A stretch of 64,000 nucleotides of DNA. Origin: Hymenobacter sp. HSC-4F20 (GTDB lineage: Bacteria > Bacteroidota > Bacteroidia > Cytophagales > Hymenobacteraceae). Shown here piece by piece: positions 8,376-21,707 of this stretch. A program made the translations under genes and the position numbers. The stretch's first letter is position 1, and every line of letters starts with the position of its first letter. Below the pieces are notes generated by a model. That model saw only the letters and a program-made list of their open reading frames with translations. It did no database searches and had not been told where the DNA came from. Location: NCBI RefSeq assembly GCF_019599275.1, contig NZ_JAHZTD010000003.1, positions 248,001 through 312,000 of the forward strand, given 5' to 3'.

Positions 8376-10421
8376 ATGATGCAACCTCTACTCCGCCAGC
8401 TGCTACTAGCCGGTATCTGCAGCGCCGCGTCCGTGTCGCTGGCCCAGGCCCAGGCCGAGCCTATCAAGTTCGGTAAGATTGACGAGCGAGACCTGACCGG
8501 GCAGAACTTCGTGGCCGACAGCGCCGCTCCCGCCGTGGTTCTATGCGACTTCGGCCGCTCTACCTTCGACTACAGCGAAGGTCAATTTCGAGTGATTTTT
8601 GAGCGGGTCGCCCGTATCAAGATCCTAAAAAAAGCAGGCTACGAACACGCCACGGTAGAGGTGCCACTCTACCACCGCGGCACCTCGGAGGAAAAGCTGA
8701 CCGGGTTGCGCGGCTTCACTTACAACTTGGTGAATGGGCAGGTAGTCAAGGAAAAGCTCAATTCCGAGTCTATATTCCGAGAAATCAGTACTCCTAATAT
8801 TACCATCCGCAAGTTCACCATGCCCAACGTGCGCGAGGGCTCTGTTGTGGAGTTTACCTATACCGTGGCGTCGGAATTTACCTTCAACTTCCAGGACTGG
8901 AAGTTTCAGTCGGACATTCCGGTGCGCTGGAGCGAATACCGGGCGGCTATTCCAGAGTACTTTGATTACAAGATGCTGATGCAGGGCTACGAGCCCCTGG
9001 AGGTGCAGGAACGCACGGAAGGCACCACGCAATACACCATCCGGTGGTCATCCAACATAGACTCGCGCACGGGCCAGCGCGAATCAGGCGGGGCGGGCGT
9101 GGTAACGCCGCGCGTAACCAACTACCGCTGGGCTATGAAGAACGTTCCTGCCCTGCGCGAGGAGCCCTACATGACCACCACCGACGACTATATCGCCAAG
9201 ATTGACTTCGAGTTGGCCGGCACCAAATGGCCCGATGAGCCCTACAAGGCAGTAGCAAACACCTGGGAAAAGATTGACCGGGAGCTGCTCAACGAAGAAA
9301 ACCTGGGGGCTCAGCTTAGCCGCGGCGGCTTTCTGAAGGAACAATTGGCCCCGCTGCTGGCCCAGCATACGGAGCCCGCCGCTCGCGTAGCGGCTATTCA
9401 TGACCTAGTGCGCCGGGCCGTGAAGTATAATGGCAATACTGGCATCCTGACCTCGGGTAACCTGCGCCGGGTGTACGAGCAGAAAACCGGCTCGGCCGCC
9501 GACATTAACCTGCTGCTGGTTGCGGCCCTGCGCGAGGCCGGCCTGACGGCTAATCCGGTACTACTAAGCACCCGCAGCCACGGCCGGATGGAAACCAATG
9601 TGCCCTTAATCAGCCGGTTTAACTACGTGCTAGCCCACGTAGCCCTGCCCGAAGGCAAAACAATGCTGGTAGACGCTACCGAAGAGCTGGCTCCGTGCGG
9701 TATGCTACCCTACCGCTGCCTGAACGGGGTAGGGCGCCTGCTGCTGCCCAAAGAAGGAGAATCGCGTTGGGTGGAGCTAAAGCCCGCCGACCGTCTGCTC
9801 ACGTACCGCCAGGTAAACCTGACGGTGGATAATACCGGAGCCCTCAGCGGCAAGGTACACCAAGAGCACGGCGGCTACCTGGCCCTGACGCAGCGCGAAA
9901 AATTGCGCAAGCTGGGCGAGAAAAAGTACGTGGAAGAGCTGGCTGCCGGGCACGAAGGCTGGAGTGTGCCAAAGTTCACCTTCAAGGAACGTGACACTTT
10001 CCACAAGCCCCTGACCCTGGAGTATGAGTTTACTGCGGCGGGCGGCGAAACGCCTGCTGGCACCATCTACCTCAACCCGCTGCGGCATTTCGGCACCGAT
10101 AAAAATCCCTTCCTGCACGAGGACCGTCGCTTTCCCGTGGACTTCGGCACTGCCCTCGACGAAACGGTGCTCATAAACATTACCCTACCCGCTGGCTACG
10201 AGTTAGAGGAAACCCCTAAAGGCATGGCGGTGGAAATACCCGAGGGCGGCGGACGCTTCCTCTACAGCGTGCAGCCGGGCCAGGGGACGCTCCAGATCAT
10301 CAGCCGCCTAAGCCTGATGCGCCCCGTGTATTCGGCGGAGGAATACGCCCATCTACGCGAGTTTTTCACGCACGTCATCACCAAGCAGGGCGAGAAGCTG
10401 GTGCTTAAAAAGAAAGCCTGA
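8376..10421 (+). CDS. Exported DUF3857/transglutaminase-like protein, catalytically degenerate (paralogue 2)
   Basis: 681 aa; the start is ATGATG at 8376, with a signal peptide MMQPLLRQLLLAGICSAASV ending near SLAQAQA. Domain order is as in the gene before it: DUF3857, transglutaminase-like core, C-terminal beta domain. The catalytic triad is again broken: Ala374 replaces Cys (KTGSAADINLLL), Tyr417 replaces His (SRFNYVLAH), and Asp433 is kept (LVDATEE). The stop TGA shares one base with the ATG of the next gene at 10421, so translation of the two is probably coupled. The 172-nt spacer before it (8204-8375) shows no clear promoter or terminator, so transcription from 6085 may continue. Function unknown. 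Confidence 0.85.
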   Translation: MMQPLLRQLLLAGICSAASVSLAQAQAEPIKFGKIDERDLTGQNFVADSAAPAVVLCDFGRSTFDYSEGQFRVIFERVARIKILKKAGYEHATVEVPLYHRGTSEEKLTGLRGFTYNLVNGQVVKEKLNSESIFREISTPNITIRKFTMPNVREGSVVEFTYTVASEFTFNFQDWKFQSDIPVRWSEYRAAIPEYFDYKMLMQGYEPLEVQERTEGTTQYTIRWSSNIDSRTGQRESGGAGVVTPRVTNYRWAMKNVPALREEPYMTTTDDYIAKIDFELAGTKWPDEPYKAVANTWEKIDRELLNEENLGAQLSRGGFLKEQLAPLLAQHTEPAARVAAIHDLVRRAVKYNGNTGILTSGNLRRVYEQKTGSAADINLLLVAALREAGLTANPVLLSTRSHGRMETNVPLISRFNYVLAHVALPEGKTMLVDATEELAPCGMLPYRCLNGVGRLLLPKEGESRWVELKPADRLLTYRQVNLTVDNTGALSGKVHQEHGGYLALTQREKLRKLGEKKYVEELAAGHEGWSVPKFTFKERDTFHKPLTLEYEFTAAGGETPAGTIYLNPLRHFGTDKNPFLHEDRRFPVDFGTALDETVLINITLPAGYELEETPKGMAVEIPEGGGRFLYSVQPGQGTLQIISRLSLMRPVYSAEEYAHLREFFTHVITKQGEKLVLKKKA

Positions 10422-12373
10422 TGCGTACGTTGCTAGCGGCTCTGACGATGGGAGCCAGCCTTTCCTTTCCCACCACCTCCTGGACAGTTGCCGGCCCGGC
10501 TCCCAAATATGCGGTAGCATCCATGCCGGCCGCCCTGCGCGAAAATGCCCACGCCGTAGTGCGCCGCCACGAGGAAACCCTGACGGTGAAATCGGTGGGG
10601 CGCACGGTGGAAACCTTGCGCCGGGCCGTGACGGTGCTCGATGAAGCCGGCTCCCGCTGGGCCAGTGAGTTGGTATACTACAGCCAGCTCAACAGCATTA
10701 GCTACTTCCGGGGTAGCGTATACGATGCCGAGGGCCGGCTGCTGCGCCAGCTGCGGGCCGCCGACGTCCAAGACATCAGCCTCTCCGACGGCTTTAGCCT
10801 GGCCTCCGATGCCCGCGGCCGCGTGGCCGATCTGAGCCAGCCTACCTATCCCTACACCGTGGAGTTTGAGTACGAGGTAGTTTCCGACAACCCTCTGTTT
10901 TACTCCACCTGGCGGCCCCAGCCGGTGGAGCAGCTGAGCGTGGAGCAGGCCTCTTTTCGGGTGCTGATGCCCACGGGCCTGCCCCTGCGCTACCAGGAGC
11001 AGCACCTGCCCGCCGGCGCTGCTCAGGCCCGACGTACTCAGGGGGGCCAGGAAGTGTACGAGTGGCAGGTGCATGACCTGGCCGCCCGTGAGGAGGAGCC
11101 TGATGCGCCTTCGGTAGCCGAAGTTACACCGGCCGTACTGACGGCACCCGCCGAGTTTGAGGTAGAAGGCCATGCAGGCCGCCTAGCCTCCTGGGCCGAC
11201 CTGAGCCGCTGGACCTACGAGCTGAACGCCGGCCGCGACGCCCTACCTCCCGCCTTGCAAGCCAAAATGGCGGCCCTGAAGCAGGAAGTGCCCGACGAGC
11301 GGGCCCGCATTCAGAAGGTGTACGAGTTTCTGCAGACCACCACTCGCTACGTATCCATTCAGCTGGGGCTGGGCGGCTGGCAAACCTTTCCAGCCACTTC
11401 CGTGGCCGCCAACGGCTACGGCGACTGCAAAGCCCTGACTAATTACTGCAAGGCCTTACTGGGGGCGGCCGGCATCCGGGGCCACGCCGCCCTGGTGCGG
11501 GCCGGCTCCGATGAGCAGGATATCCGCGTGGACTTCCCCAGCTCCCAGTTCAACCACGTGGTGTTGTGCGTGCCGCTGGCCCACAGCGCCCGCCCCGATA
11601 CCGTGTGGCTGGAGTGCACTAGCCAGAGCAACCCCTTCGGCTACATGGGCGGCTTTACCGGCAACCGCCACGCCTTGCTGCTGCTTCCGGAAGGCGGCCG
11701 CCTAGTGCCCACCCCCCGCTACGGAGCCCCAGAAAACCGCCGCGAGCGGCTGGCCGACGTGTTCGTGGATGCCCAGGGTAATGCCACCGCCACCCTGCGG
11801 ACCCTGCGCACCGGGCTGGAGTATGATGCCGTGGCCGACCTGCCCGGGCTAGACTTGGCCGAGCAAAAAAAGCGTATTGGCAGCCGCCTGTCCTTGGCCA
11901 ACTTTGCCCTCACCAAAGTAGCCTTCCGGCCTACCCCGCCCGGTGCAGCCGTGCCGGGCCTGACGGAGAACCTGACCCTGACGCTTCCTGCCCTGGCTCC
12001 GCCCAGCGGGAAGCGGGTGTTTCTGACGCCCAACCTGCTCAGCCGATGGTCGGCGCCGGCGGCCTCAGTAGGTGAGCGGCAAACTGATCTATGGCTGGGG
12101 CATGCGCTTACATATACCGACACCGTGCGCCTGCACCTGCCCGCCAGCCTGCAGCCCGAGCAGTTGCCGGCACCAGTGCAGCTCAGCACTCAGTTCGGGA
12201 CCTACTCCAGCCGGCTGCATACCCTCCCTGATGGGACTCTGCAGTACATCCGGCGGCTGCAGGTGCCCCGCACTCGCTTTTCCCGCACCGAATATCCGGC
12301 CTACCTGGAGTTTCGGCGCAAGATCAGTGCGGCCGACAAAGCGCAGGTGGTGCTGCTGAAAACCGATGCCTAG
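10421..12373 (+). CDS. DUF3857/transglutaminase-like protein with Cys and His retained (paralogue 3)
   Basis: 650 aa, starting on the last base of the preceding stop codon. The N-terminus (MRTLLAALTMGASLSFPTTS) is a short signal-like segment. A DUF3857 domain spans about residues 50-240, then a transglutaminase-like core whose nucleophile Cys336 (YGDCKALTNYC) and His379 (QFNHVVLCV) are intact; the third position, normally Asp, is Glu398 (WLECTSQ). It is thus the only member of the trio that could be catalytic, as a cysteine peptidase or acyl transferase. It is more distant from the other two than they are from each other. The coupling of one competent copy and two dead copies suggests a complex, but that is inference. 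Confidence 0.85.
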   Translation: MRTLLAALTMGASLSFPTTSWTVAGPAPKYAVASMPAALRENAHAVVRRHEETLTVKSVGRTVETLRRAVTVLDEAGSRWASELVYYSQLNSISYFRGSVYDAEGRLLRQLRAADVQDISLSDGFSLASDARGRVADLSQPTYPYTVEFEYEVVSDNPLFYSTWRPQPVEQLSVEQASFRVLMPTGLPLRYQEQHLPAGAAQARRTQGGQEVYEWQVHDLAAREEEPDAPSVAEVTPAVLTAPAEFEVEGHAGRLASWADLSRWTYELNAGRDALPPALQAKMAALKQEVPDERARIQKVYEFLQTTTRYVSIQLGLGGWQTFPATSVAANGYGDCKALTNYCKALLGAAGIRGHAALVRAGSDEQDIRVDFPSSQFNHVVLCVPLAHSARPDTVWLECTSQSNPFGYMGGFTGNRHALLLLPEGGRLVPTPRYGAPENRRERLADVFVDAQGNATATLRTLRTGLEYDAVADLPGLDLAEQKKRIGSRLSLANFALTKVAFRPTPPGAAVPGLTENLTLTLPALAPPSGKRVFLTPNLLSRWSAPAASVGERQTDLWLGHALTYTDTVRLHLPASLQPEQLPAPVQLSTQFGTYSSRLHTLPDGTLQYIRRLQVPRTRFSRTEYPAYLEFRRKISAADKAQVVLLKTDA

Positions 12374-12603: not shown

Positions 12604-15600
12604 ATGCCTGATACTTCTACTCCGCGCTGGCGGCGGCTCTCCTTCCTGAAGGCAGGCACCTTGGTGGCTGCGCTTGGCGCTTCTATCACGTCGGCCACGG
12701 CGCAGCGGGTACTGTGGGCCGATGCACCCGCCCTGTCAGTGGCGGCTCGCCGCGCTACTCAACCGCTGGCTCACTTTCGCTCGGTTACATTTCAGCTGGA
12801 TGCTGTTCGCAGCGTGTTGCAAACAGCTCCTGCAGCCCGCGGTACCAGCGCGGCCGGCTCTACTACGGTGTTGTCTTTGCCCCTCCCCGATGGCACTTCC
12901 CAGCGGTTTCGGGTGGTGCAAACGCCCGTTATGGCGCCGGCGCTGGCGGCTGCCTTTCCTTCCATTCAGACGTACGCGGCCCAGGGTATTGACGACCCTA
13001 CCGCCACGGCCCGCCTGGACGTAAGCCCCGATGGCTTTCACGCCATGATTCTGGCGCCCGATAAAACGGTGTACATTGACCCAGCCGTGCGCGGCGCAGC
13101 CGACCACCTGGTGTTTGAGCGGCGGGCCATGAACCGCGCCGCGTTTCCCTTCGTGTGCGCCACACCCTCACCCACGGAACTTACGCCCGCCGCTGCGCCC
13201 GGGCCAGTGAGCCGCGCGGCCCGGGCTGCCGTAGCTAACGGTACTACCCTGCGCACCTACCGGCTGGCCCTGGCCTGCACCGGCGAGTACGCGGCCTTCC
13301 ATGGGGGCACCAAGCAGGGTGCTATGGCGGGCATGGTGGCCTCTATCAACCGCGTGAACGGCATCTATGAAAAAGAGCTGGCTGTGCGTCTGGTAATGGT
13401 ACCCAATAACGAGAGCCTAATTTTTCTGAACGCTGCCCAGGACCCTTACTCCAATGATGACGGGGTAGCCCTGCTCGATGAAAACCAGACCGTAGCCGAC
13501 TCGCTCATTGGGCCCGCCAATTACGATATTGGCCACGTGTTCAGCACCGGGGGCGGGGGCATTGCCCAAAAGCCCTCCGTGTGCGTCGAGGGAAAAGCCC
13601 GCGGGGTAACGGGTTCCCCGGCGCCTCAGAATGACGCCTTCGACGTGGACTACGTCGCCCACGAGATGGGGCACCAGTTTGGCGCCGACCACACGTTCAA
13701 CAGCACGACGAACTTCTGCAGCGGCAACCGCACCGCTTCGGCGGCCTACGAACCGGGCTCGGGCTCAACCATTATGGCCTACGCCGGCATTTGCGGAGCC
13801 GATGACTTGCAGCCTAACTCAGACCCCTATTTCCACTCCTATAGCTTCGACCAGATTGTGGCCCACATTACGGGGGCGGGCAACTGCGCCGTTGCTACGG
13901 CGACGGGCAACACGCCGCCCGTGGTGAATGCGGGCCGTAACTACGCCATTCCCCTCAGCACGCCGTTTGTGCTCACCGGCTCGGCCACCGATGCCAACGG
14001 GGATGCCCTTACCTACTCCTGGGAGCAGTTTACCCTGGGCCCCAGCGGTGCGCCCAACTCCCCTGCTGGCGACGCGCCTATCTTCCGCGCCTTCTCCCCC
14101 ACAGCTACTCCTTCCCGCACCTTCCCGCGCCTGGCTGACTTGCTCGGCAACACCCAAACCAAAGGCGAGCTGCTCCCAACCTACGGCCGGCGCCTTACCT
14201 TCCGGCTGGTTGCGCGCGACAACCGTGCGGGTGGGGGTGGCGTCGACTACGACTCCATGCAGGTGGTGGTAGTGCCCACGGCCGGGCCGTTTGTAGTGCG
14301 GGCCCCCAACTCGGCTACCGCATGGGTAGCGGGGGCTTCCCAACAGGTTATCTGGGACGTGGCCAACACCAGCCAGGCCCCTGTTAATGCCGCCAACGTG
14401 GACATTCTACTTTCCACCGACGGCGGCCTAACTTACCCCACGGTACTGCTGGCCAACACCCCCAACGACGGGTTTGAGGCCGTAACGGTGCCCGCCAGTG
14501 TGGCGGCCAGCTCTACCGCCCGGGTGCGGGTGCAGGCCAGTGGCGGCATCTTCTTCGATATTTCCAACCAGAACCTGACCCTGACGGCGCCCACCGGCCC
14601 AACGTTCTTTTTGCAGAGTACGGTGGCCGCTTCCCTGGCCTTTTGCCCGGGCACCTCGGCAACTCTACCCGTTAGCGTGGGTCAGTTGCAGGGCTTTTCA
14701 GGAGACGTCGCCCTCTCGGCTACCAACCTGCCCACCGGCGTTACGGTGAGCTACGGCGCAGCAACGCTGCCCGCCGGCGGCAGCACTACGGCTACTATTA
14801 CGGCGGCGGCCACGGCCCCGTCGGGCACCTACACGCTCCAACTCACCGGCACCAGCGGCGGCGTAACCCGGGTGCTGGATGTGCTCTTGACCATTCAGGC
14901 TACGGCTACGCAGGCCGCCATTATTTCCACGCCAGTCGCCGCGGCGGCGTCTACCCTGCGGCCGCGCATTACCTGGGCGGCCGTGCCAAGCGCCAGCTCT
15001 TATGAAGTGCAGGTAGCTACCGACGGGGCCTTTAGCAATGTGGTAGTTTCGCAAACCGGCATCACGGGCACTTCCTTCACTACGGCGCTGCTCCAGCCCA
15101 GCACCCAGTACTACCTGCGGGTGCGCGCCGTCAGCACCTGCGCGGCAGCTCCCTACTCGGCCACCCGGGAATTCCGGACGGGGACGCACACCCTGCGCAG
15201 CATTGCCGCCACGCAGGTACCTCGTACCATCGGTACGGCCGCCGGGGCTACGGCCACGTCTACTATTGTTATCGGCAACACGGAGCGGGTGTCGGACTTG
15301 CGCATCCGGGACTTGGTCGTTACGCACCCGGATATAAGTGAGCTGGAAATTACGCTTACCAATCCGGCCCGCCGTCAGACTGTGCTGCTTGCTCAGGTCT
15401 GCTCCGGCACCGCCAACCTGAACCTGAGCTTTGCCGATGATGGCTCAACGCAAACCTGCCCCCTACCTGCGGGTACTACCGTGCGCCCCGCCGGCTACCT
15501 CGGCGACCTGTTGAACGACCCGGCCCTGGGCAGCTGGACACTTACCATCCGGGACACGAAGGCGGCCCGCGGCGGTACGCTCACTGGCTGGAAACTCGAC

Positions 15601-16185
15601 CTCTATACTTTGAATGAAGCCCCGGCCGCACCTTCGGGCCTGAGCGTGCTGGCGCCAGTAATTACCAACAACATGGCCAGCATTGACCTGGCCTGGCTGG
15701 ATAACTCGGGGAATGAAACCAGCTTCGAGATTGAGCGCGCGCAGCTGAACACCTCCACTTTCAGCCGCATTGCCACGGTAGGCGCCAACGTAACGGCCTA
15801 CACCGACCAAGTGCGCACGAACGGCACGTTCTGCTACCGGGTGCGCGCCATCAATGCTACGGGGGCTTCGGCCTACTCCAACGAAGGCTGCCAGACGGTT
15901 TCCACCGTTACCAATACCGTCAGTGCGGCCCTGCTTCCTGGCATTTCCGTTTACCCTAATCCCAGCGCCGATGTTTTCACTGTGCAGGTGGACAACTCCC
16001 AGCGCGGCCCAGTTACGCTCCGCGTCGTGGATGCCCTGGGGCGGAGCATCGCCACCCAGACGCTAACCAAATCGGGGGCAGTGTTCCAACATCCGCTTGA
16101 CTTACGCACGCTAGCACCGGGCGTGTACAATCTGCACCTCGATATGCCCGATGGCTCAGCGGTGGTACGGCTGCTCAAGCAGTAG
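12604..16185 (+). CDS. Large secreted zinc metalloprotease with T9SS sorting domain
   Basis: 1193 aa. After a signal region (hydrophobic about residues 16-33, cleavage near SATAQ) comes a prodomain, then a reprolysin-like metalloprotease whose zinc motif HExxHxxGxxH is His353, Glu354, His357, His363 (AHEMGHQFGADH); a Met-turn candidate is IMAYAGIC. Downstream are Ig/PKD-like beta domains, a fibronectin type III-like domain (about 785-860), a proprotein-convertase P-domain-like module (RIRDLVVTHPDISELEITL, about 900-995), a second FN3 and a C-terminal T9SS sorting domain (ISVYPNPSADVFTV, ending VVRLLKQ). The protein is expected to be exported through the outer membrane by T9SS and to be released or anchored. 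It is a monocistronic unit bounded by terminators on both sides. The natural substrate is unknown. Confidence 0.92.
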   Translation: MPDTSTPRWRRLSFLKAGTLVAALGASITSATAQRVLWADAPALSVAARRATQPLAHFRSVTFQLDAVRSVLQTAPAARGTSAAGSTTVLSLPLPDGTSQRFRVVQTPVMAPALAAAFPSIQTYAAQGIDDPTATARLDVSPDGFHAMILAPDKTVYIDPAVRGAADHLVFERRAMNRAAFPFVCATPSPTELTPAAAPGPVSRAARAAVANGTTLRTYRLALACTGEYAAFHGGTKQGAMAGMVASINRVNGIYEKELAVRLVMVPNNESLIFLNAAQDPYSNDDGVALLDENQTVADSLIGPANYDIGHVFSTGGGGIAQKPSVCVEGKARGVTGSPAPQNDAFDVDYVAHEMGHQFGADHTFNSTTNFCSGNRTASAAYEPGSGSTIMAYAGICGADDLQPNSDPYFHSYSFDQIVAHITGAGNCAVATATGNTPPVVNAGRNYAIPLSTPFVLTGSATDANGDALTYSWEQFTLGPSGAPNSPAGDAPIFRAFSPTATPSRTFPRLADLLGNTQTKGELLPTYGRRLTFRLVARDNRAGGGGVDYDSMQVVVVPTAGPFVVRAPNSATAWVAGASQQVIWDVANTSQAPVNAANVDILLSTDGGLTYPTVLLANTPNDGFEAVTVPASVAASSTARVRVQASGGIFFDISNQNLTLTAPTGPTFFLQSTVAASLAFCPGTSATLPVSVGQLQGFSGDVALSATNLPTGVTVSYGAATLPAGGSTTATITAAATAPSGTYTLQLTGTSGGVTRVLDVLLTIQATATQAAIISTPVAAAASTLRPRITWAAVPSASSYEVQVATDGAFSNVVVSQTGITGTSFTTALLQPSTQYYLRVRAVSTCAAAPYSATREFRTGTHTLRSIAATQVPRTIGTAAGATATSTIVIGNTERVSDLRIRDLVVTHPDISELEITLTNPARRQTVLLAQVCSGTANLNLSFADDGSTQTCPLPAGTTVRPAGYLGDLLNDPALGSWTLTIRDTKAARGGTLTGWKLDLYTLNEAPAAPSGLSVLAPVITNNMASIDLAWLDNSGNETSFEIERAQLNTSTFSRIATVGANVTAYTDQVRTNGTFCYRVRAINATGASAYSNEGCQTVSTVTNTVSAALLPGISVYPNPSADVFTVQVDNSQRGPVTLRVVDALGRSIATQTLTKSGAVFQHPLDLRTLAPGVYNLHLDMPDGSAVVRLLKQ

Positions 16186-16201
16186 CCTAGCGCCCGTACT
16201 C

Positions 16202-16255
16202 GCATTATACAAAAAAGGGGTTCCTGTAAGCAGGAGCCCCTTTTTTGTATAATGC
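16202..16255. terminator. Bidirectional terminator (25-bp stem)
   Basis: Arms 16202-16226 and 16231-16255 are complementary over 25 bp with one G-T type mismatch, containing AAAAAAGGGG and CCCCTTTTTT. It lies between the convergent stops at 16185 (+) and 16275 (-). Confidence 0.92.
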
Positions 16256-16274
16256 ACTACCCCAGCTCTGCGGT

Positions 16275-18383
16275 TCAGAACCGGTAGCGTATCTGGGCCT
16301 TGACCTCGGAGCGGTGCGCCCCTTGTATTTCCTCCAGCCCGGAGCCGATGGTGCGCTGGTGACGGTAATGCGTATTGGCGTAGCGCAGCCACAGCGTGAG
16401 GTGCCGGGTAGCCTCCACCTGGGCTAACAGATAGGCGCGCGTACCCTGCCCGGATAAGGCCGGCACGGAAAAGGCGTAGAGCACGTCCTGCTCATACACG
16501 TACTGGCGGGTATCGTAGTCGTCGGTGTCAAAGAGAGCATACCGGGCGCTCAGGCGCAGGGCGCGGGCAGGGTGCACGGTTACATCCTGGGCCAATACGT
16601 AGCCGCGCCGGATAGGCCCTCCGGCCTGCTCCTGGTACGTAGTGCCCTGCACGCGGGTGCGCAGGCTAAGTACCGGGCTAGGGCTGGCATCATAAAAAAA
16701 TAGCAGGCTGCGGCGGTGGGTAGGCACGGGCAGCGGCACGGGGCGGAGCGTATCGGCATCGTAGGCCTTGGTACGCTGGCGGAGCTGGGCGTAAAGCAGG
16801 CTGGTTTTGGTGGGGCTGAACGTAACACGCACCAGCCAGTCGTGGCCGGTGCTGGGAGCCCCTACCTGGTAGCGCAGCCACGGAAACTGGAACCGGTCGT
16901 AGTAAGCCGAAACTTCCCAGCGCGCCGTGGGCCGTACTTTCAGCCCCAGATACAGGCCGCTTTCGTTGGTGTTGCGGGAGTTTTCGCCAAAGGCATTGCC
17001 GTAGAGGGTGTGGAACGTGCGGCCGTAGCGGCGGTAGAGCAGGGCCATGTCTACAGTCGGAGCCAGGCTGGCCAGCAGCCCGTTGACGGTGCCCAGTCCG
17101 CCGCTGCTGCTGCGCGCCGTTTCGCCGAACAGCAGCACGTTGCGCCACACGTAGCTGTAGTGGGCTCCCAGGGCCAGGTTGCGCGTGCCCCGCAGCTCAA
17201 AAGCGTTGTACGGCTCGTCGCGGCGCAGCAGGGGCTTATCGAACTGGGTGCCCACGGCAGTAAATCCGGCCTGTAGGTTGCCACCAGGGCTGGCGTAGCT
17301 GACGTTGCCCCCCAGTACCGTTTCGCGCAATACTTGCCGGTTCGTCAGCTCCGTAGGGGTGCGGTGGAAGCCCGTCAGCAGCAGCCCCGAAGAAAACTCG
17401 CTGAAATCGGCCAGCGAATCCTGGGCTTGCTGCACGGAGGCATCCACCCGCTTGCGCGAGGCAAAAGCTGTAGCCCGAACGGTGGGGGTTACGGCCACGG
17501 TAGCGGCGGCCCCGCGGAAGAAAGTGTTTTCCAGCACCGAGGAATAGGGCCGCACCCCAACGGAGCTGCGGCGCAGGGTGGTAATCGTTTCGGCCCCTTT
17601 CCCTACTGCCAGCCCCGAGGATAGCAGCAGCCCTTGCCCAAACTGCAACTGGTAGTCGCCCAGGGCCAGGGTTTTCAGCCGCCCCCGCTCCTGCACCACC
17701 ACGTGGGCCGAGTAAAAGTCGGCCCCGAATTGCCGGGTAGCAGGGTTCCAGCGAAACTGCTCGCCAGCGTCCTTTTCAGCCGTGAAGCCCAGGCTGAAGT
17801 CTTTGCTGTGGCTGACGCGGTAGCGCACCAGCAGCTTATCCGGGGAGCCAAGATAGCGCGTAGCTGGCGCGCCGGAACGGGTAGTATCGGGCGGGGCGTA
17901 GCCGGAGCGGCTTTGCAGCACCCGCTCGTAGCGCAGGAACAAGGCGTTGTTTTCTTCGTGCGCAATACGCTGCCAGAGCGAGCCGCGCCCGGCATTGGGG
18001 TTGGTAGAGGTAACCGCTACAAAAGGCGCCAGCCGGTAAATCGTGCGCAAGTCGAAGCCCTCAATGGTTTGCAGCTCGTAGAGGCTAAGCAGCGCGCCGT
18101 TGCGCTGCCGGTGGTTTAGCAGGCTGGTTATCTGGGTTTCGGAGAGCAGCAACACGCCTCGCAACTCTTCCCGGGTAGCCGAGTTCAGGTTGAGCGGCGT
18201 CTGGTAGTACTGCAGCAGCGTTTCATAGAGGTCTTCGGAGGGGACCTGCTCGCTCTGGATTTCGGCAAACAACTCCTGGGTCAGGCGGTCGAGGTCGGGT
18301 ACCGCAGGGCGCGGGTACTCCTGGGCCCAGGCGGGCAGGGTCGCGGTCAGGGTGCCCACCAGGGCTAGTATACGCCACCTCAT
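16275..18383 (-). CDS. Helix-hairpin-helix outer-membrane beta-barrel protein
   Basis: 702 aa with a clean signal peptide (MRWRILALVGTLTATLPAWA, then QEYP). Residues about 63-120 form a ComEA-like tandem helix-hairpin-helix region (LNLNSATREEL, then NGALLSLYELQTIEGFD). The rest, from about residue 135, is an alternating beta pattern ending in a C-terminal aromatic strand (VKAQIRYRF), typical of an outer-membrane beta barrel. HhH folds usually bind the DNA backbone, so a periplasmic or surface DNA-binding channel is a reasonable inference but unproven. The start overlaps the stop of the upstream PorV/PorQ-like gene by 4 nt (ATGA), so the two are co-translated partners. Confidence 0.82.
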   Translation of the reverse strand: MRWRILALVGTLTATLPAWAQEYPRPAVPDLDRLTQELFAEIQSEQVPSEDLYETLLQYYQTPLNLNSATREELRGVLLLSETQITSLLNHRQRNGALLSLYELQTIEGFDLRTIYRLAPFVAVTSTNPNAGRGSLWQRIAHEENNALFLRYERVLQSRSGYAPPDTTRSGAPATRYLGSPDKLLVRYRVSHSKDFSLGFTAEKDAGEQFRWNPATRQFGADFYSAHVVVQERGRLKTLALGDYQLQFGQGLLLSSGLAVGKGAETITTLRRSSVGVRPYSSVLENTFFRGAAATVAVTPTVRATAFASRKRVDASVQQAQDSLADFSEFSSGLLLTGFHRTPTELTNRQVLRETVLGGNVSYASPGGNLQAGFTAVGTQFDKPLLRRDEPYNAFELRGTRNLALGAHYSYVWRNVLLFGETARSSSGGLGTVNGLLASLAPTVDMALLYRRYGRTFHTLYGNAFGENSRNTNESGLYLGLKVRPTARWEVSAYYDRFQFPWLRYQVGAPSTGHDWLVRVTFSPTKTSLLYAQLRQRTKAYDADTLRPVPLPVPTHRRSLLFFYDASPSPVLSLRTRVQGTTYQEQAGGPIRRGYVLAQDVTVHPARALRLSARYALFDTDDYDTRQYVYEQDVLYAFSVPALSGQGTRAYLLAQVEATRHLTLWLRYANTHYRHQRTIGSGLEEIQGAHRSEVKAQIRYRF

Positions 18384-19276
18384 GGCTGCTTCGGGGCGCG
18401 CTGCCAGGTTACGCTTAGTTGCTGGCTCAGTCCCAGGGTTTCGTGCCAGCCGGCGGCGTAATCAACCCGAAGCCGGCCAGCCTGCACTCCTACCCCGCCC
18501 GTGAGCTGGGTGGTAAGCGAGGAAAGACCGGCGCGCAAGGCCAACACCGGCAACGGCTGATATTCCAGGCCGGCTTTGAAATCAGCGTCCTGCTCCACGT
18601 CTTTTTCCGTTTCGGTCAGCAGCAGCACCTTCTCGGAAGCTCGCCACGCCAGCCCAGCCCGCAGCACGGTAGGCACCCGCTCCTCTTGGTAGCGGGCCAG
18701 CCGGGCCTGGGTGAGGTTGTAGAGGGTAGCGCCGAAGGTGAGCTTGCGCGGAATAATATCGGCCTGTCCGCCCAGGGAAGCCACCAGCACCCGCCGACTG
18801 CCCAAACTTTCCAAACTCGTTTGCAGCATCTCTGCCCGGGCACCCAGCCGCACTGTGCCCAGGCGGTAGCCGTAGCCCAGCCCCAGCCGTTGCTCCGAGT
18901 ACAGCTTGCCCCCGAACCGCTGGGCAGTCAGGCCGAGTACCCCGTAGCGCGGCGCATCGGCTGCCGCCACCGCGGCTGGTACACCTGTCACCGGCGCGGC
19001 GGGAGCCTGATAGCCCAGCGGCATTGCAGCGGCTACGGCTACGGTGTTCAGCACGGGCAGCAGGTAACGGTTTTCGGCGCCCATGCCTACACTCAGTTGC
19101 GAGAGGCTACCTAACGCCGCTGCGTTGGTGGCGCTGGCCCACACGTCATCCTCCAGCACACTCCCAATCTGCCCGAGGCCCGCGCTGCGGGCACCCCACA
19201 AGCCAGGCCCATTGCCCTGAGCGCACACACTCTTACTAAACAGCAAAGCAGCTATCCAACAGTATATTTTTATCAT
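18380..19276 (-). CDS. PorV/PorQ-like outer-membrane barrel protein
   Basis: 298 aa. A signal peptide (MIKIYCWIAALLFSKSVCAQ) precedes GLWGARSAGLGQIGSVLEDD, which resembles the start of PorV/PorQ/UPF0164-type Bacteroidota barrels (ARSAGMG, then a stretch about asparagine or alanine-rich 'ATNAAAL'). The remainder is glycine-rich alternating beta strands ending in LSQQLSVTW. Such proteins in T9SS act as shuttles or cargo receptors, but this one is encoded with an HhH barrel rather than with por genes, so its role is open. First gene of a two-gene minus-strand unit. AT-rich upstream region 19277-19310 holds a near -7 box (TATCTTTC). Confidence 0.7.
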   Translation of the reverse strand: MIKIYCWIAALLFSKSVCAQGNGPGLWGARSAGLGQIGSVLEDDVWASATNAAALGSLSQLSVGMGAENRYLLPVLNTVAVAAAMPLGYQAPAAPVTGVPAAVAAADAPRYGVLGLTAQRFGGKLYSEQRLGLGYGYRLGTVRLGARAEMLQTSLESLGSRRVLVASLGGQADIIPRKLTFGATLYNLTQARLARYQEERVPTVLRAGLAWRASEKVLLLTETEKDVEQDADFKAGLEYQPLPVLALRAGLSSLTTQLTGGVGVQAGRLRVDYAAGWHETLGLSQQLSVTWQRAPKQP

Positions 19277-19356
19277 ACGCAGGATATATAGAATGTATAT
19301 TATCGAAAGATAGGACAGCCTCCGTAACGTGCCAAATTTCCCGGTGCATGCTCACG

Positions 19357-19415: not shown

Positions 19416-21707
19416 CTAGAGCCCGGCGGCGTCCTTCTTGCGCTTGATTTTGGTTTTACCGCCCTGCTCGGTTTTCACCTTCATCTTCTCTACGTCACTC
19501 ATGTCGGCGGCGGAAGCGGAGGCAGACGGGCCTACACCGGGGTTGGGGCCGTTGTTAACAATAGTCATTTCATCGACGAGGTGCTTGGCGCCGCCCAGCT
19601 TCTCCACGCACCAGAGCACGTAGCGAATATCTGCGTTGATACAGCGCTTCAGCTCGGGGTCGTAGGCTAAGTCGCCGGTCATGGCTTCCCAGTTGCCGTC
19701 GAAGGCCAGACCAATCAGCTCCCCGCGCCCATTGATGACGGGTGAGCCCGAGTTGCCGCCGGTAATATCGTTGTCGGTGATGAAGGCCACGGGCAGGCTG
19801 CCCTGCTTATCGGCGAAGCGACCGTAGTCTTTCAGCTGAAGTAGCTCCAGCTCTTTCTGGGGCACCACGAACTCGGGGGTGGTAGCGTCCTCCTTTTCCA
19901 GAATACCTTGGGCCGTGGTTTTGTAGTCGTACGCTACGGCGTCGCGGCCGCGGTAGGGACGCACCGTGCCGTAGCTGAGACGCAGCGTGAAGTTCGCATC
20001 GGGCGAGTACACTTTCTGGGAGTTCTTTTCGCGCAGGGCAGCCACGTAGAGGCGGTTAGCCCGGCCCAAGCCGGCTTGCAAGCCCTGCAGCTTGGGTACA
20101 ATGTTCTGCACGTAGTTCTGGTACACCGACTGGTACGTTTTATAGGCTGGATCGGCTTCCAGCTTAGCCAGGGTTGGCCCGGCCAGGAACGCTTTTATCT
20201 TCGCCTCCGAGGCCAGGAAGGAGTTGCCGAACACGTAGGCGGCGTACTTCGGCATCGAGCCCCCGTACTGCTTTTCTACCGTCTGAAACACATCGGGCAG
20301 TTGGTCTTTGGGCACGTCCTGCATATACAGGTTCAGCAGGGCTGCAAACACTTTCTGGTCAGTAGAAGCGCTATAGTCCTTGAAATGCTCGGTCATAGGC
20401 TCCTGCAGGTCAGCCACGGCCTTGTCGATGGCCGCCTTGTCGCCGGCCTTCAGGGCTGTGGCCAGGGGCATCAGACGGGCAGCCAGCGGAATAATTTCGG
20501 TGCCAAATGCGGCTTCGTTCACGTACTGCGTGCTCAGGTTATATTGCCGCAGACCGGCGTAGGCCTGGTTGATGACGTTGAGGGCGTCGCCGTACTGCTG
20601 GGCGCGGGCCGGCTCCTGGGCAATCCACTGGAGCAGGGCATTTTCTTCGGCCTTTTTAGCCTCCACGGTTTTCAGCCGCTTCATGCCTTCATTCTGCCCG
20701 ATGTAGTACTTCCAGTAGTTGGCAATGCCGGCGTACTTGGAAGCGTACTTGAGGCGCAGGGCCGGATCCTGGTCCATGTCTTCCTTCCACAGTTTCAGGC
20801 GGGTGTCGCGCAGTTTGATGCGGGCGGGGTTGGTCTGGTCGAGGGTGAGCTGCAGGCCGGCGGCGGGCAGGAAGCGCTGCGTGCGGCCGGGGAAGCCAAA
20901 CACCATGGCAAAGTCACCTTCGCTCACGCCCTGCAGGCTCACGGGCAGGTGCTTTTTGGGCACGTAGGGTACGTTGCCGGGCTGGGGGGTAGCGGTGGGC
21001 TGGTTGTTTTTGTCGGCGTAGACGCGGAACATCGAGAAGTCGCCGGTGTGGCGGGGCCACATCCAGTTGTCGGTGTCGCCGCCAAACTTACCCACCGCTT
21101 CTGGCGGCGCGCCTACCAGGCGCACGTCGCCGAAGCGCTGGTAGATGAAGAGGTAGTATTCGTTGCCCCCGAACATGTCGCGCACGTAGGCCACGTACTT
21201 GCCGTTTTCCTTTACGTTATCGGCCAGCTCGCGCTGGCGCTGCTGCACCTTGGCCGTGCGCTCCTGCTCGGGCGTGGCCGGCGTGATGCCCTCCAGCACC
21301 TTGCTCGTGACGTCCTCCATGCGCACGAGAATATCCACGTACAGGCCGGGGTTCTGCTTTTCATCCCGCCGCGTGGCTGCGTAGAAACCGTTTTGCAGAA
21401 TGTTGTTCTGGGGGGTGCTGTGGCTCTGAATGGCGTCGTAGCCGCAGTGGTGGTTGGTGAGCAACAACCCCTGGCTGCTGACGAACTCGCCGGTACAGAA
21501 GCCGCCAAGCTGCACTACGGCGTCCTTCAGGGAAGCATTGTTCACGTCATAGATTTCTTCGGCCGTCAGCTTGAGGCCCTTCTTCTGCATGTCGGCCTGG
21601 TTAAGGCGCTTCACAAAGAGGGGTAGCCACATCCCTTCGTCGGCGCGGGCCGCGAGGGGTAGCAGCAGCGTCAGCAGCAGGGCTTTGGCCCAGTGAGTAG
21701 TACGCAT
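19416..21707 (-). CDS. S46 family dipeptidyl-peptidase, DPP7-type
   Basis: 763 aa exported serine exopeptidase that removes dipeptides from oligopeptides in the periplasm. The signal peptide (MRTTHWAKALLLTLLLPLAA) is cut before ADEGMWLP, the usual mature start of S46 enzymes. The catalytic His lies in TNHHCGYDAIQ (residues 84-94) and the nucleophile is Ser653 in TGGNSGSPVING. Eighteen residues after the Ser the protein has Gly671 (AFDGNWEAM), the position that is Arg in DPP11 and Gly in DPP7, so a preference for hydrophobic rather than acidic P1 residues is expected. That assignment rests on known family rules. The tail (KTKIKRKKD) is unusually basic. Probably works with the secreted metalloprotease at 12604 in protein nutrition. 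Confidence 0.94.
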   Translation of the reverse strand: MRTTHWAKALLLTLLLPLAARADEGMWLPLFVKRLNQADMQKKGLKLTAEEIYDVNNASLKDAVVQLGGFCTGEFVSSQGLLLTNHHCGYDAIQSHSTPQNNILQNGFYAATRRDEKQNPGLYVDILVRMEDVTSKVLEGITPATPEQERTAKVQQRQRELADNVKENGKYVAYVRDMFGGNEYYLFIYQRFGDVRLVGAPPEAVGKFGGDTDNWMWPRHTGDFSMFRVYADKNNQPTATPQPGNVPYVPKKHLPVSLQGVSEGDFAMVFGFPGRTQRFLPAAGLQLTLDQTNPARIKLRDTRLKLWKEDMDQDPALRLKYASKYAGIANYWKYYIGQNEGMKRLKTVEAKKAEENALLQWIAQEPARAQQYGDALNVINQAYAGLRQYNLSTQYVNEAAFGTEIIPLAARLMPLATALKAGDKAAIDKAVADLQEPMTEHFKDYSASTDQKVFAALLNLYMQDVPKDQLPDVFQTVEKQYGGSMPKYAAYVFGNSFLASEAKIKAFLAGPTLAKLEADPAYKTYQSVYQNYVQNIVPKLQGLQAGLGRANRLYVAALREKNSQKVYSPDANFTLRLSYGTVRPYRGRDAVAYDYKTTAQGILEKEDATTPEFVVPQKELELLQLKDYGRFADKQGSLPVAFITDNDITGGNSGSPVINGRGELIGLAFDGNWEAMTGDLAYDPELKRCINADIRYVLWCVEKLGGAKHLVDEMTIVNNGPNPGVGPSASASAADMSDVEKMKVKTEQGGKTKIKRKKDAAGL

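Follow-up and report, generated by a model that had tools for sequence, protein, structure and literature searches.

The window analysed here is a stretch of 64,000 nucleotides from Hymenobacter sp. HSC-4F20, and the genes that concern us are a pair on its minus strand. The first encodes an exported barrel protein of 298 residues, hereafter the partner, and the second a protein of 702 residues in which a ComEA-type tandem HhH domain is followed by a predicted large beta barrel. The features of the locus are as follows:

16201..16256, unstranded: strong inverted repeat with A/T ends, 3' of the HhH-barrel gene (-37.9 kcal/mol, z -10.3 against shuffles)
16275..18383, minus strand: HhH-barrel gene, an open reading frame of 702 aa with a 4-nt overlap with the partner gene
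16278..17951, minus strand: predicted beta-barrel domain, residues 145-702, about 24 strands in the AlphaFold2 model
17520..17642, minus strand: most conserved barrel segment by alignment conservation, residues 248-288, between strands 5 and 6 and mostly non-strand
18009..18200, minus strand: ComEA-type tandem HhH domain with degenerate hairpins, residues 62-125, from the HHH_3 match and the model helices
18324..18383, minus strand: signal peptide of the HhH-barrel protein, residues 1-20, with cleavage after AWA or AWAQ, read directly from the sequence
18380..19276, minus strand: partner gene, first of the unit, an open reading frame for a 298-aa exported barrel of predicted FadL/PorV fold
19307..19335, minus strand: promoter-like site 5' of the partner gene, TTGGCA-17-TATCTT, from a consensus scan

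The open reading frames in the window place the stop codon of the partner gene and the start codon of the HhH-barrel gene within a shared ATGA, and this overlap probably couples their translation. The promoter-like site resembles the Bacteroidota -33/-7 element, and as the scan found 2 such sites against 0.7 expected it is weak evidence; the inverted repeat is likely to be a bidirectional terminator closing the two-gene unit. With a promoter-like site before the first gene and a stable repeat after the second, the transcription unit probably consists of the partner and HhH-barrel genes alone, and comEC lies outside it, elsewhere in the genome. The closest named relatives of the 702-aa protein are from Hymenobacter species, with identity of up to 88%. 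Convergent with the barrel gene is a plus-strand gene (12604-16185) for a secreted protein of 1193 aa. This protein carries a motif of the HExxH metallopeptidase kind (VAHEMGHQFGADH) as well as fibronectin-like stretches, and TIGR04183 identifies a T9SS type A sorting domain in it. Upstream of the pair (19416-21707, minus strand) is a gene for an S46-family dipeptidyl-peptidase, which is Dpp7-like at 756 bits and below the equivalog cut-off of 1200. Farther off, two overlapping plus-strand genes of 681 and 650 aa (8376-12373) form an apparent tandem pair of transglutaminase-type, exported appearance, for which there was no NCBIfam match.

The first-pass annotation of this DNA had described an exported protein that joins an HhH module to a large barrel and overlaps a second barrel gene by 4 nt, and on this the open reading frames, the HHH_3 match and the AlphaFold2 model all agree. 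The model, built with 38 sequences, has a mean pLDDT of 82.3 and a pTM of 0.79; it begins with a helix at residues 2-20, in the signal-peptide region, and continues through a helical N-terminal part to approximately 24 strands, counted by hand from the DSSP line. The barrel's closest structural neighbours are the FimD/PapC ushers, AlgE and TonB-dependent receptors (Z 13-15), and since many unrelated barrels tie at these scores, the matches indicate a large barrel and nothing more specific. The resemblance to FimD and PapC is to their wide, 24-stranded barrel (best Z 15.2, rmsd 4.0 over 362 residues), but identity is only about 10% and there is no usher family match in Pfam. TonB-dependent receptors combine an N-terminal plug domain with a 22-stranded barrel; we rejected this identity given approximately 24 strands and the lack of any Plug or TonB-receptor family in Pfam, and likewise that of a secretin such as PilQ, for which Pfam gave no match at E 1. 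A BamP-type subunit of the BAM complex was considered and dropped, BamP being described as periplasmic or part-periplasmic (PMC12611786). A search by domain words of the openly accessible literature returned no characterised member of the family.

Conservation is concentrated in the barrel rather than in the HhH domain, which contains just 3 of the 63 positions at which at least 85% of the 26 divergent sequences agree. Eight residues of the segment between strands 5 and 6 (G249, Q250, G251, L252, K262, Y280, S282 and E285) reach the same level, and this segment may possibly be a plug or constriction, should it lie within the lumen as we infer. The protein would be inserted in the outer membrane, its orientation there and its use as a pore are likewise putative, and neither the size nor the fold of the barrel proves a DNA pore.

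The family to which the HhH domain belongs is clearer than its activity. Pfam HHH_3 aligns with residues 62-122 (E 1e-5) at 26 bits, just under the cut-off of 27, and a six-frame search of the whole genome scores the 702-aa protein at 30.9 bits, above it; the comEA model TIGR01259 matches residues 63-124 only weakly, and at 24.3 bits against a cut-off of 152.35 the protein falls far short of ComEA proper. The helices expected of the domain are modelled at residues 71-75, 82-95, 101-106 and 112-121 with pLDDT of about 77-89. Hairpin glycines are the mark of DNA-binding HhH motifs, and in the 702-aa protein GIG is replaced by LLS in hairpin 1 and by GFD in hairpin 2. Among 38 Cytophagales sequences the second glycine of hairpin 1 is never retained and that of hairpin 2 is aspartate in every case; what is conserved instead is Gln, Glu and Phe. 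In the 702-aa protein the domain (residues 62-125) has a net charge of 0, and the average over the Cytophagales sequences is -2.4. With its glycines lost and without a net positive charge, DNA binding by this domain is doubtful in the Cytophagales lineage. The label of a 'DNA-binding type' module given in the first-pass annotation must therefore be withdrawn, and the loss of hairpin glycines and basic residues, which it had said would count against its proposal, is largely what these sequences present.

Some distant homologues are better preserved. Glycine occupies the second position of hairpin 2 in 10 of 34, some of them with GIG, and distant homologues fit comEA models far better than the 702-aa protein does (TIGR01259 E 2e-13 and 3e-16, with scores of 22-60 bits overall), the homologue at locus L147 reaching the cut-off of TIGR00426. 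The domain probably descends from a ComEA-type module, to judge from these sequences, and its appearance in the Cytophagales lineage is that of a structural or docking module. It might still be argued that the barrel's own HhH domain takes hold of DNA entering at the pore, so that no separate ComEA would be needed, and the ComEA-type fold and the GIG hairpins of some distant homologues speak for this; we think it improbable, given that neither second glycine occurs in any of the Cytophagales sequences, that the domain is on average acidic, and that the genome has another ComEA. Hymenobacter sp. HSC-4F20 carries comEC, dprA and a separate 3xHhH ComEA-like protein of 346 aa (G000:C20, L003 1129-2169), with an N-terminal hydrophobic segment and one intact GIG hairpin, which exceeds the ComEA repeat cut-off. 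This membrane-anchored protein is likely to be the true ComEA of the genome, and a separate ComEA is likewise found in nearly all genomes of the sister family f13 discussed below. The barrel thus does not replace ComEA, and the suggestion that it offered a compact alternative to a separate one falls.

The AlphaFold2 model of the partner (pLDDT 84.8) matches the T9SS translocon 8gl6 in its PorV chain (Z 30.7), and FadL (Z 30.9); across PorV and FadL structures the range is Z 29-31 over about 250 residues at 12-18% identity, and the FadL-type subunits found in BAM complexes of Bacteroidota give Z 25-26. A FadL/PorV fold is therefore predicted, and the earlier comparison with PorV and PorQ holds at the level of fold, though the protein is below the curated cut-offs: it scores 38.7 bits against 90 for the NCBIfam model PorV_fam and is also under those of the PorV and PorQ models, with homologues at 23-75 bits. 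In the T9SS translocon the lateral opening of SprA is where PorV docks (PMC10994853), and BAM includes the FadL-family subunit BamG (PMC12611786), so that a FadL-type accessory barrel beside a large barrel is an established theme in Bacteroidota. By analogy, the HhH-barrel and its partner may be in physical contact, although the main barrel differs from those of SprA-PorV and BamA-BamG and its distribution is independent of SprA.

The pair is widespread. Of 29 related genomes 27 carry the barrel gene, with rare exceptions as a single copy and in one case split into two open reading frames, and 212 of a sample of 296 Bacteroidota genomes have a strong match (E <= 1e-20, our own cut). The association with a PorV-like protein, proposed from the single locus, is borne out across the phylum: among the 111 genomes where both are listed, 94 have the partner as the adjacent upstream gene on the barrel's strand, 95 of 114 inspected loci have a same-strand partner match, and the 4-nt overlap recurs in Fulvivirga, Reichenbachiella and Anditalea. 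Loci with very long open frames contained overlapping or adjacent frames and no fusion of partner and barrel, and the 114 loci revealed no conserved neighbour besides the partner, other than porD in 16 distant loci and taxon-specific genes. Because both the architecture and the gene order recur across the phylum, the joining of HhH domain and barrel is not a product of chance; the pair appears from its distribution to be old and under selection to stay together.

The clearest indication of function comes from the sister family f13, which is probably Chitinophagaceae and is represented by 61 genomes, 48 of them with the barrel. Here comEC lies directly downstream of the barrel gene on the same strand in 44 of the 48, covering 21 of 22 genera, with the Competence domain beginning 680-1279 bases beyond the barrel in those 44. 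We read 23 of these loci in full: the comEC frame touches or overlaps that of the barrel in all of them, a partner was identified in 19, and the neighbour ranking next in conservation occurs in 13. The identity of ComEC is secure (PF03772, E 4e-53 to 4e-60). In classical comE operons of other bacteria, comEA precedes comEC; the f13 barrel gene, with its ComEA-type domain, occupies that same place. Within the family, 47 genomes have both barrel and comEC, one has the barrel alone (in a genome 76% complete), 8 have comEC alone and 5 have neither (Fisher p 0.001), an excess of joint loss over expectation, although adjacency itself favours joint loss. We regard this linkage as strong indirect support for a role in DNA uptake, and it is the part of the first-pass proposal that stands, while the part that rested on the HhH domain is weakened by degenerate hairpins and the absence of a basic character.

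Elsewhere in the phylum the evidence is less telling. A barrel in lineages lacking DNA-uptake genes, which would have spoken against the original proposal, is not what we see for comEC, which is present in 211 of the 212 barrel-bearing genomes of the phylum sample; comEC is, however, nearly universal (288 of 296 genomes), and co-occurrence consequently has little power. Seven near-complete genomes of family f46 (G195, G234, G242, G273, G285, G297 and G305) are without a comEC match. The barrel is absent from all seven, which as a single lineage amounts to weak evidence from few phylogenetic events. Many comEC-bearing genomes in families f16, f15, f33 and f38 are without the barrel. The large family f16 (e.g., G049, G057 and G131) has comEC and SprA, lacks the barrel and almost never has a partner match, and must either manage without the system or use another.

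Such observations give some credit to a different reading, in which the barrel is a general outer-membrane transporter or exporter of polymer, lipid or nutrient, the HhH domain is a structural module, and the position before comEC is historical and silent on cargo. This reading would accommodate the degenerate, non-basic HhH domain, the comEC-bearing families without a barrel, the structural neighbours (AlgE, TonB-dependent receptors and ushers) and the fact that, with positions compared by eye among the matches listed, comEC was not seen adjoining the barrel outside f13. What it explains poorly is why linkage to comEC should be kept in 21 of 22 f13 genera while other neighbours change, why a ComEA-type domain should sit where comEA would, and why the barrel genomes without a comEC match are just two, one of them 76% complete and the other in about 290 contigs. 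We consider it unlikely, if the most serious of the alternatives.

A component of type IX secretion or sorting, with barrel and PorV-like partner forming a translocon or shuttle, is suggested by the fold of the partner, by the T9SS sorting domain of the protein encoded downstream of the barrel, and by porD (DUF4835, NF052317), which divergently adjoins the pair in 16 of 34 distant loci. Examples of porD beside the pair are L147 8916-9872, L149 8949-9842 and L173 6139-7119. The distribution of the barrel does not follow SprA, however: 68 of 69 genomes without SprA have a strong barrel match, while the SprA-bearing families f16, f15, f38 and f46 have none, and the partner is itself under the PorV, PorQ and PorV_fam cut-offs. 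We reject this explanation as improbable; the linkage to comEC and the retention of the barrel in SprA-less genomes together favour DNA uptake over type IX secretion.

Our preferred reading, to which we assign a probability of roughly 0.55, makes the 702-aa protein an outer-membrane part of ComEC-dependent DNA uptake in those Bacteroidota without a recognisable uptake pilus and secretin; the part it would most likely be is the large channel or the core of that channel. In proposing a mechanism, we envisage that a barrel of approximately 24 strands would sit in the outer membrane, the ComEA-type domain at its N-terminus facing the periplasm, and that the FadL/PorV-like partner would dock beside it and gate or stabilise it, much as PorV does on SprA and BamG in BAM. 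DNA, which we infer to be the cargo, would pass through the barrel into the periplasm, where the separate, membrane-anchored ComEA would receive it, and from there would reach ComEC. In the Cytophagales lineage the barrel's own HhH domain would probably be a docking or plug module, since its hairpins seem to have lost the features needed for DNA binding. The full form of this proposal, that the barrel with its built-in ComEA-derived domain and PorV-type gate is the DNA channel of pilus-less Bacteroidota, takes the place of the secretin of the type IV pilus and passes DNA on to ComEA and ComEC, we offer more tentatively, as a possibility that is less likely than not.

The proposed system has analogues among known routes of DNA uptake. 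Its HhH domain is of the same tandem family as ComEA of Bacillus subtilis and Vibrio cholerae (TIGR01259) and as PGN_0421 of Porphyromonas gingivalis (PMC11532111), but unlike ComEA it is fused to a large barrel, has lost its hairpin glycines and coexists with a separate ComEA. Like the PilQ secretin and type IV pilus of proteobacterial DNA uptake, it would let DNA cross the outer membrane and reach ComEA and ComEC, but it is a single-chain beta barrel with no secretin domain in the Pfam scan. In Riemerella anatipestifer the HhH protein RA0C_RS02645 is essential for transformation (PMC8459023), and like the HhH-barrel it is an HhH protein of a pilus-less Bacteroidota lineage; unlike the barrel, it carries its HhH at residues 236-301 and is predicted to be periplasmic. 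On both counts its counterpart in Hymenobacter is likely to be the 3xHhH protein and not the barrel, and the same is likely for the ComEA of P. gingivalis (PMC11532111). A transposon screen in R. anatipestifer also found other outer-membrane candidates, RA0C_RS04915/04920, to be essential (PMC8459023).

Riemerella and similar naturally competent Bacteroidota have no recognisable pilus genes (PMC8459023), and how DNA gets into the periplasm of P. gingivalis is described as unclear (PMC11532111). The barrel described here is a strong candidate for the outer-membrane part that is missing from the picture of DNA uptake in Bacteroidota: a barrel with a ComEA-type domain, found phylum-wide and in an apparent operon with comEC across one family, supplies, together with its partner, two candidate genes for the question of DNA entry. 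Bacteroidota are abundant in soil, water and the gut, and the barrel could explain part of the spread of genes among them, resistance genes included.
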